From NCBI GenBank assembly GCA_028727785.1, contig JAQYNQ010000136.1, positions 1 to 43,890 of the forward strand: a DNA stretch of 43,890 nt, read 5' to 3'. This document shows, one piece after another, positions 34,889 to 37,150 of this stretch. The DNA comes from Eubacteriaceae bacterium. GTDB lineage: Bacteria; Bacillota; Clostridia; Peptostreptococcales; Anaerovoracaceae. The notes under the pieces are model-generated. The model was given only the letters and a program-made list of their open reading frames with translations. It made no database searches and was not told the DNA's origin. A program made the position numbers and the translations under genes. Within the stretch, counting starts at the first letter, position 1. Each line of letters starts with the position of its first letter.

Positions 34889-37150
34889 TTACATTGAAGT
34901 AAACTCTTTATAAATTGCCTGAACTGCAGGCAGATAATCTTCATCGCCGACACCAATGAGCATATTGATTTTCTCTGATCCGTGATCGATAAGTCTTATA
35001 TTGATCTTGTGGTTTGCAAGTGCTCCAAGAACTTTGACCGCAATCGCAGGTGAAGTTCCCAGCTCTCTTCCGACAATTGCAATAATAGCAAGACCATTGT
35101 TTACAGAAAGCTTAGTCGGGTCAATCCTGCTCTGGATTTCGTCAAGAATATCGTCTGCATACTCATCAAACTCTCTGCTGTCTACAATAATGTTCAGAGT
35201 ATCGATTCCGGAAAGCATGTTTGTGATTGTAATATTTCTATCCGTAAAAATGTCCAGAAGCTCTCCCCGAAGGTTGGAATCTTCATTGAGATGAGCCTTT
35301 TCAATCATAACTGATGTATGACCCTTCTTTCCTGAAATTCCTGAAACCTGAAGGTTGCTCTGATAGTAGTCCGCGTTCTTAACAATAAGAGTTCCTGCAT
35401 CTTCAGGTCGATTAGTATTTCTGATGTTGATTGGAATTTCCATTTTAATTACAGGGAAAACTGTATCTTCATGAATAACAGCAGCTCCCATATATGAAAG
35501 CTCACGAAGTTCCTTATATGTAATTACAGGAACCGTCAGCGGATTATCAACAATCCTTGGATCAGCCATAAGAAGACCTGAAACATCAGTCCAATTTTCA
35601 TAAATATCAGCACTGCAGACAGTCGCAACAATAGCACCTGTAATATCAGAGCCTCCACGTGAGAAAGTGCGTATGCTTCCGTCAGGCATAGTTCCATAAA
35701 AACCCGGAATCACAGCGTTATGATGCACTTCAAGAGTCTTTCCCAAAGCGGCTTTTGTTGCAGCAGCATCATACCTGCCTTCAGAATCAAAGAAAATATT
35801 ACCCTCTGCATCAACAAACTCATATCCTAAATACGCTGCCATAATCTTTGCATTCAGATATTCACCACGGCTTACAATATAGTCAGTCCTGCTCTCGTCT
35901 CCCACTGCAGCTAAAATCTTCTCGAATTCTCTGTCTATATCAAGTTCTACACCCAGACCTCTTGCGATAACCTTGAAGCGTGACTTAATTGAAGACAGCA
36001 CATCCTCAGCTTCCGCCTCAGGAAGTCCGGATGCCCTGATAAGAAGATCTGTTACCTTCACGTCGTCGTCAAAGCGTTTGCCCGGTGCGGAAACAACCAC
36101 ATAGCTGCGTTCAGGCTCAGCCCTGACAATCTCAGCACACTTCTTGAACTGAGAAGCACTGGCCAGAGATGTGCCGCCGAATTTGCAGACCTTGCGGTTT
36201 ATTTCTCCGTCAATAATGTCCTCAAAACTTTCACTGTTAATCTGAGTGATATCATACTGAGTCGTCTGATAAACGAAATAGTTCAGCCAGTTGGAGTATA
36301 GCAGATTAGCACATGAACGCCACTTTACAACAGGTTCCTGAGTGTCGTCGTCACCAGGAAAATAGTTACATGGGATATCAGGGTTAAGTCCTGCATTTTT
36401 ATCTCGCACGTATTCCTTCAGCAACGTATCAGCATCATACTCAGAGTGCCCCATGATAAAAATCTGCTTGTCATTGTTTGATTTTACAGCATAGATTCCT
36501 GCCTCATCAGAGGTTGCGATAATTTTCAGATCAGGCACAGCCTCAACATCCTCAATGTCCACAGTTGTGTTTCTTGAATGAGGTACGTAGAACTCATCAT
36601 CAAAACCTCTAAAAAGCATGCCCTTTTTATAATTCAGGGTGTGCTTATATACACCGGAAAGCTTCTTCGGCAGAATTCTCTTCTGAATTCCGTAGTGATA
36701 GTAAAGCCCTGCCTGAGCACCCCAGCAAATGTGGAAAGTGCTGTGGACATGTTTCTTAGACCACTCCATAATCTCGCAAAGTTCGTCCCAGTAGTCGACT
36801 TCTTCAAAGTCCATAAGTTCTACGGGCGCTCCGGTAATAATCATTCCGTCATAATATTTCTGTTTAACCTGATCAAAGGTTTTGTAGAAAGCAATCATGT
36901 GCTCCTGGGATGTGTTTCCTGCCTTATGAGTGCTTGTCTGAAGAAGCTCCAGTTCAACCTGAAGCGGTGTATTACCCAGCAGCCTTGTCAGCTGAGTTTC
37001 TGTATCAATCTTTGTCGGCATCAGATTAAGAATAAGTATCTGCAGAGGTCTGATATCCTGAGTCATAGCTCTGGTATCAGTCATTACGAATACGTTTTCT
37101 TCAGTCAGAGTCTTAATCGCCGGCAAGTTATTAGGTACTTTAATTGGCAT
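34889..37150 (-). CDS. MetA-type homoserine O-acetyltransferase fused to aspartate kinase
   Basis: One uninterrupted 753-residue frame. Residues 1-305 are full-length MetA, with the catalytic Cys142 (FHICWGAQAG), His235 and Glu237 (IMGHSEYD). Glu111 in GAPVEL marks acetyl-CoA over succinyl-CoA use, in known MetA enzymes. After a linker of about 13 residues, 319-753 are aspartate kinase: KFGGTSLA (substrate/ATP), VVVSAPGK, the FSRGGSDITGA loop and two C-terminal ACT domains. The first step of the aspartate family pathway and the first step of the methionine branch are thus on one chain. No ATG, GTG or TTG with a ribosome site occurs in the linker. AGGAG precedes ATG 37150. The ACT domains suggest lysine or threonine feedback. 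There is no homoserine dehydrogenase domain. Confidence 0.92.
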   Translation of the reverse strand: MPIKVPNNLPAIKTLTEENVFVMTDTRAMTQDIRPLQILILNLMPTKIDTETQLTRLLGNTPLQVELELLQTSTHKAGNTSQEHMIAFYKTFDQVKQKYYDGMIITGAPVELMDFEEVDYWDELCEIMEWSKKHVHSTFHICWGAQAGLYYHYGIQKRILPKKLSGVYKHTLNYKKGMLFRGFDDEFYVPHSRNTTVDIEDVEAVPDLKIIATSDEAGIYAVKSNNDKQIFIMGHSEYDADTLLKEYVRDKNAGLNPDIPCNYFPGDDDTQEPVVKWRSCANLLYSNWLNYFVYQTTQYDITQINSESFEDIIDGEINRKVCKFGGTSLASASQFKKCAEIVRAEPERSYVVVSAPGKRFDDDVKVTDLLIRASGLPEAEAEDVLSSIKSRFKVIARGLGVELDIDREFEKILAAVGDESRTDYIVSRGEYLNAKIMAAYLGYEFVDAEGNIFFDSEGRYDAAATKAALGKTLEVHHNAVIPGFYGTMPDGSIRTFSRGGSDITGAIVATVCSADIYENWTDVSGLLMADPRIVDNPLTVPVITYKELRELSYMGAAVIHEDTVFPVIKMEIPINIRNTNRPEDAGTLIVKNADYYQSNLQVSGISGKKGHTSVMIEKAHLNEDSNLRGELLDIFTDRNITITNMLSGIDTLNIIVDSREFDEYADDILDEIQSRIDPTKLSVNNGLAIIAIVGRELGTSPAIAVKVLGALANHKINIRLIDHGSEKINMLIGVGDEDYLPAVQAIYKEFTSM

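Follow-up and report, generated by a model that had tools for sequence, protein, structure and literature searches.

A single gene in the window—the whole 43,890-nucleotide stretch of DNA analyzed here—joins a complete MetA-type homoserine acyltransferase to a complete aspartate kinase. Comparative sequence evidence makes it probable (we put it at about 0.65) that this fusion is a methionine-dedicated aspartokinase joined to a branch enzyme and likely no longer under the usual lysine/threonine regulation. The gene occupies 34889..37150 on the reverse strand, with its ATG at 37150 and its stop at 34889, as one open frame of 753 codons (753 aa), and it is identified as a MetA–aspartokinase fusion by its open reading frame, Pfam, NCBIfam, database matches, and relatives.

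The fusion gene and its home genome

Both halves of the protein are full length. The MetA (HTS) domain spans residues 2–299 (36254..37147, reverse strand), matches Pfam PF04204 over 298/298 positions (E 2e-138), and contains C142, H235, and E237, which we take to be the MetA catalytic residues; the full-length HTS match and these three residues place it in the MetA family. It also carries E111, presumably the marker of the acetyl-CoA type of MetA. The fusion scores 486.9 bits against the NCBIfam model MetA_acetyl (NF047918; cut-off 460.5), while the succinyl model TIGR01001 stays below its cut-off (450.1 bits vs. 495). The aspartokinase catalytic domain covers residues 318–578 (35417..36199, reverse strand), aligns with Pfam AA_kinase over 234/234 positions, and contains the KFGGTS, SRGEY, RGGSD, TDVSG, and DPR motifs; the NCBIfam aspartate kinase model NF006540 is passed with 478.8 bits (cut-off 434). 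A C-terminal ACT region follows at residues ~603–753 (34892..35344, reverse strand), delimited by Pfam ACT_9 and structure alignment: ACT_9 (residues 690–750) is the only ACT match above the Pfam cut-off, and the first ACT domain was placed by alignment to solved aspartokinase structures. Pfam gave no match to the homoserine dehydrogenase domain PF00742 in the fusion protein, and the aspartokinase/homoserine dehydrogenase type was rejected on Pfam and NCBIfam scores.

The linker between the two enzymes (residues 300–317; 36200..36253, reverse strand) has no in-frame ATG, GTG, or TTG. This start-free stretch extends over codons 262–350, the first such codon being GTG 351, within the kinase, and an internal start was rejected on this ground. 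The preliminary description had named a 753-codon frame with a complete MetA and an ACT-bearing aspartate kinase, the residues Glu111, Cys142, His235, and Glu237, and a linker devoid of start signals, all of which was borne out by the frame itself, Pfam, and NCBIfam. Its suggestion that a predicted structure might reveal a domain interface fared less well. The AlphaFold model shows the two domains apart, connected by a low-confidence linker (pLDDT <50 at residues 305–317), with a pTM of 0.54 and an unsupported interface; given pTM values of 0.54 and 0.52 for the predicted structures, we claim no domain interface.

What surrounds the gene? A promoter-like pair read by eye (−35 TTGCAG, 17 nt, −10 TATAAT; 37184..37212, reverse strand) lies upstream, with TATAAT ending 33 nt 5′ of the fusion ATG (37150) and a TAGGAG also upstream. 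The leader predicted from it is short, leaving too little room for a riboswitch, and Rfam gave no leader RNA match upstream of the window's fusion; a permissive search of 36900–39100 was also empty. No metY, hom, or asd adjoins the gene. Upstream, on the reverse strand at 37300–42933, is a fructose PTS cluster (DeoR regulator, 1-phosphofructokinase, EIIABC, then PtsI), and directly downstream, at 33524–34357 and 34380–34856, are a Mrp/NUBPL-type P-loop NTPase and a 4Fe-4S protein. The fusion is the sole MetA in its genome and one of two aspartokinases, the other being a separate enzyme of 459 residues. Other contigs carry two homoserine dehydrogenase genes (L199:1483-2550 and L200:1015-2061), in neither of which Pfam found an ACT domain. 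They also carry two full-length Cys/Met PLP enzymes that appear metY-like by eye. The single SAM riboswitch found in the genome precedes metK (judged from the protein start), and its three T-box matches lie on other contigs and below the gathering score. Because the window's gene has neither metY/hom/asd neighbors nor a methionine leader, what ties it to methionine is MetA itself, together with the evidence from relatives.

Two fusion types and their origins

How far does the full-length fusion extend? The search for the same architecture in related genomes, proposed at the outset, recovered it readily. Our close-relative survey covered the own genome plus 60 relatives. A match to the fusion turned up in every one of the 12 same-genus genomes, in 11 as a full-length frame, the match in the twelfth (G004) starting at the contig start; separate genes, which would have spoken for a sequencing error, were found in 0 of the 11 same-genus genomes with a complete locus. 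An intact full-length fusion is present in 31/197 genomes of the family sample (own genome included), spanning 12 genera, and the other matches there at E 1e-130 are lone MetA genes, judging from match range and frame length. Among the 297 genomes of the order sample, many of them also in the family sample, there are 35 intact full-length fusions and one frame-broken one (G413), all in the same family. No full-length form was seen outside the family in the order (297), class (391), or phylum (398) samples; for the class and phylum, the query was the short fusion described below and the threshold was strict, which may have hidden distant forms. Among database proteins, every one of the 120 listed matches, out of 7996 scored, combines a MetA with a kinase domain, at 60–100% identity over 95–100% of the query; Eubacterium sp. 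AB3007, a cultured relative, is named among the matches. MetA residues 111, 142, 235, 237, 193, and 249 are identical in 47/47 full and 13/13 short fusions, and in three full fusions (L043, L135, and L136) metY lies upstream.

Several loci depart from the common form. Two full fusions, L144 (G208) and L145 (G409), reach 821 and 829 aa through extra residues within the kinase part. The frame-broken copy in G413 (L146:2611-4892) is of the full type and is interrupted inside the kinase domain, within a 2.8 Mb contig; it was typed as full in the later MetA tree, the T-box core search, and the linker measure and stands outside the earlier MetA tree and the kinase trees. One genome (G163) encodes the fusion (C15:75008-77269) together with a separate MetA (C39:116798-117721). 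In a more distant member of the same family, G080, the genes run metY, metA, TAA, kinase, with metA and kinase adjacent in one frame and unfused. Some candidates were rejected as fusions: L051, L075 (Frisingicoccus), and L102, although their tblastn match extended past residue 340, and G325 and G372, where the match over 1–733 is made up of a metA and a distant lysC-type gene that stand as separate genes downstream of a SAM riboswitch.

A second fusion type occurs in other Clostridia. It joins MetA to the kinase catalytic domain without the ACT region (~560–630 aa) and is found in six genomes of two other families of the same order, as a full-length frame in 30/130 genomes of one family in another order, and once in another class (G855). 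Species named in database records are, among others, Peptoniphilus asaccharolyticus, P. indolicus, P. obesi, P. catoniae, P. olsenii, and Anaerosphaera multitolerans. metY lies upstream of 8/13 short fusions. The gene order at L150 and L152 is metY–fusion–hom–asd (Pfam), and L155 has metY and homoserine dehydrogenase by BLAST and Asd by eye. The predicted structure of one ACT-less protein (L150:5670-7475) has, in its kinase part, a 54-residue helix (355–408) in place of two shorter helices of the full fusion, and this helix might keep the oligomer together as a substitute for the ACT region.

Do the two types descend from one joining event? Their placement as one clade was rejected for MetA (lnL 290.9 lower, p-AU 4.4e-5) and for the kinase domain (lnL 41.0 lower, p-AU 0.004), in AU tests on groups named after the first trees. 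Near-identical rows were removed from all trees, and the later kinase tree also omits L020, L181, L182, and L186. In the MetA trees, the full fusions form one group (support 97/74 and 84/27), with L043 and L135 as its first branches and lone MetA of Oscillospiraceae and Anaerovoracaceae kin around it; short fusions fall elsewhere, partly mixed with lone MetA. The short fusions are themselves not one clade for MetA, requiring three to four changes, which adds to the rejection. In the earlier kinase tree, the full fusions form one group (19/91); in the later one they need two changes, and separate kinases fall among them with weak support. That later tree also unites 19 separate aspartokinases in one group (98/95) without any fused kinase inside. 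The short-fusion kinase groups with the unfused ACT-less kinase of G053 (100/100), whose locus reads SAM riboswitch–metY–metA–kinase–hom (metY by Pfam, hom by eye).

Since a single clade of both fusions is rejected whichever domain is used for the tree, the MetA–aspartokinase join probably happened at least twice, in separate lineages; a single old fusion followed by repeated splits or domain replacement would be a formal alternative. G080 shows how such a fusion could arise. In the earlier tree its unfused kinase is placed, with low support (16/75), beside the full fusions and in the later one with the separate kinases (98/88), and because it shifts between trees we treat it as a parallel case, not a shown ancestor.

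ACT region and leader RNAs

Is the kinase half still an aspartokinase, and is it still controlled like one? The motifs KFGG, RGE, RGGSD, TDV, and DP are invariant in 47/47 fused kinases, with variation at the T of KFGGTS (0.62), the S of TDVSG (0.68), and the R of DPR (0.47). The ACT region presents a different picture. Seven of its positions (E643, H644, P646, Q723, S725, S726, and E727, in fusion numbering) are invariant in 27/27 separate kinases, a set from which 6/33 were left out (L020, L156, L179, L181, L182, and L186), and these same positions are mostly replaced in the 47 fused kinases, with H723 in 39. Two arginines, R628 (42/47) and R695 (46/47), are common to the fused kinases and not the majority residue in separate ones. 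Among columns at least 90% conserved in separate kinases, the majority residue is lost in fused ones at 33/60 ACT positions vs. 7/107 catalytic positions (Fisher p 4e-12, in a column test that ignores relatedness). Conversely, conservation of at least 90% is reached by just 10 ACT columns in the fused kinases vs. 60 in the separate ones, and of those 10 only R695 is nonmajority among the separate kinases. The ACT fold is present, but at these residues the fused proteins mostly depart from the separate clostridial type. Parts of the old pattern are retained in a few of them—E643/H644 in L043, L135, and L136, and Q723 in L019 and L142. The ACT region has changed, and relaxed constraint or loss of regulation fits this as well as a new effector does. 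In E. coli aspartokinase III, T344, S345, G323, and M318 are linked to lysine resistance (PMC10464499); as a discriminator these sites did not separate fused from separate kinases in a by-eye alignment.

We also looked for regulatory RNAs ahead of the genes, counting each core sequence once after removal of duplicates. A methionine-type leader precedes the fusion or its metY in 12/13 distinct short fusions; upstream DNA of the thirteenth (L154) is cut by the contig end. Two of these leaders are SAM riboswitches (L150 and L151) and 10 are T-boxes, seven found at the gathering score (L152, L153, L155, and L242–L245) and three by core motif (L240, L241, and L246). All 10 T-boxes carry the specifier region GAANATGG (GAA-N-ATG-G), a pattern that we take to specify methionine. 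The leader stands ahead of metY in eight cases (L150–L153, L155, L240, L241, and L245) and immediately ahead of the fusion in four (L242–L244 and L246). Methionine leaders of Gram-positive bacteria have reportedly been studied by comparative genomics by Rodionov and co-workers.

Full fusions have no such leaders. Neither a SAM riboswitch nor a T-box was found upstream in 47 distinct loci, 45 of them with at least 785 nt upstream, and no T-box core was found within up to 5 kb of upstream sequence, as far as each locus extends. A methionine leader of its own, as a mark of a dedicated aspartokinase, is thus found neither at the window's gene nor at the 47 full fusions. Other RNA matches in these loci (tRNA, tRNA-Sec, THF, cobalamin, and raiA) were excluded from the methionine-leader count, and the T-boxes at L146 and L156 were rejected as fusion leaders because they lie on the strand opposite the metA–kinase genes. 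At L158, a T-box precedes metY and a lone metA, without the GAANATGG pattern. Three further stretches (L147 and L148, from G325 and G372, and L149, from G053) place unfused metA and aspartokinase behind a SAM riboswitch, with homoserine dehydrogenase recognized by eye; judged by gene order, they are possible further methionine-dedicated aspartokinases.

Proposed role, alternatives, and known systems

What would such a protein do? The 753-codon frame likely encodes a bifunctional enzyme, with both domains active within one chain, that would feed aspartyl phosphate into the methionine branch; E111 and the MetA_acetyl match point to acetyl-CoA as the acyl donor. Carried on one chain, the enzymes for the aspartate kinase step and for the conversion of homoserine to O-acetylhomoserine would be made at a fixed 1:1 ratio. 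Since the intervening reactions belong to Asd and homoserine dehydrogenase, substrate channeling within the chain is unlikely, and the gain from fusion would be linked dosage and linked regulation. The ACT-less form is predicted to be controlled at expression, by a SAM riboswitch or a methionine T-box, and the window's form in its diverged ACT region, departing from the lysine/threonine control that the separate enzyme is expected to show. The preliminary description had proposed that the fusion couples the pathway entry to the methionine branch and could permit shared feedback by methionine, lysine, or threonine. Comparison supports the coupling, through two fusion kinds that are not one clade and the leaders of most short fusions; for lysine and threonine the evidence leans away, because the ACT residues are mostly changed and a separate aspartokinase is kept in the genome. 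A bolder version is tentative, and we rate it as rather doubtful: repeated welding would have created a private methionine entry, the ACT region would have been rebuilt around R628, R695, and H723 so that one methionine-branch ligand throttles both steps, and the ACT-less form would use SAM riboswitches or methionine T-boxes instead.

The fusion might also be neutral, a stop codon having been lost between operon neighbors, with a kinase that serves the whole pathway under ordinary lysine/threonine control and no coupling to methionine. The unfused state it starts from, adjacent in-frame genes parted by a TAA, exists in G080, and the AlphaFold model of two domains, a low-confidence linker, and an unsupported interface (pTM 0.54) is what it would lead one to expect. 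However, a neutral join sits poorly with the rejection of one clade of both fusion types for both domains, with retention over 12 genera, with the separate aspartokinase in the same genome, and with the diverged ACT residues, and we consider it unlikely. That same ACT divergence, along with a lower mean pairwise identity in the catalytic region of fused than of separate kinases (0.56 vs. 0.66), could instead mean that the kinase half now serves chiefly in regulation or as a structural element (it might hold the MetA dimer, for example), with little aspartokinase activity, but the five motifs invariant in 47/47 fused sequences make this very improbable.

Two further alternatives concern the chain itself. 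The cell could contain two chains, made through an internal start or cleavage of a linker that is predicted with pLDDT <50 and poorly conserved in a 43-sequence alignment. Set against this are the start-free codons 262–350 and a narrow linker length: YD[ILV] to [KR]FGG measures 21–23 residues in the 41/48 full fusions that fit the pattern, the length lying beyond the pattern's reach in 7/48 full and 10/13 short fusions. We give two chains hardly any weight. A sequencing or assembly artifact might be suspected from a source assembly in 137 contigs, but the same frame in other genomes and in database proteins refutes it, leaving a negligible probability. The reading we prefer is a dedicated methionine aspartokinase welded to MetA.

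Named database records describe these proteins as MetA only (homoserine O-succinyltransferase/O-acetyltransferase) or as aspartate kinase only, and such single-function names can hide the second activity from pathway reconstructions. The two fusion types, whose apparent regulator is a diverged ACT region in one and an RNA leader in the other, offer a natural comparison of enzyme-level vs. expression-level control of one pathway. If the proposed reading is true, an aspartokinase insensitive to lysine and threonine would be useful for methionine production.

How do these fusions compare with known systems? Aspartokinase is a textbook control point, and to our knowledge its known fusion partners are few; MetA is absent as a partner among the NCBIfam bifunctional aspartokinase models listed for the fusion. 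We found no report of a MetA–aspartokinase fusion in open-license literature searched by title and abstract start. The single-domain relatives are clear. The MetA half matches PDB 2h2w, 2ghr, and 2vdj over ~300 residues by sequence and fold, each of these being a single enzyme of ~300 residues without a kinase. The closest solved relative of the kinase half, also among the top fold matches, is the monofunctional aspartokinase of C. acetobutylicum (PDB 3tvi, E 9e-114), which lacks MetA and keeps the EHMPSG and DQGSSEIN of separate kinases, mostly changed in the fused form. In aspartokinase/diaminopimelate decarboxylase (NF006515), the kinase is fused to a branch enzyme and not to the next step, as here, but the branch is that of lysine, and the fusion scores only 123 of 802 bits. 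In E. coli, the isoenzyme linked to methionine is MetL. ThrA and MetL (NF006959 and NF007003) likewise combine an aspartokinase with a later aspartate-family enzyme in one chain; in our fusion, however, the partner is MetA, not homoserine dehydrogenase, and is N-terminal, and the ThrA and MetL models score 212 of 726 and 117 of 582 bits, far under their cut-offs. Aspartokinase II is repressed by methionine (PMC10464499). Aspartokinase fusions are a known kind; new here are the second, ACT-less fusion type, the probable repeated origin of the join, the leaders of the ACT-less type, and the ACT contrast.
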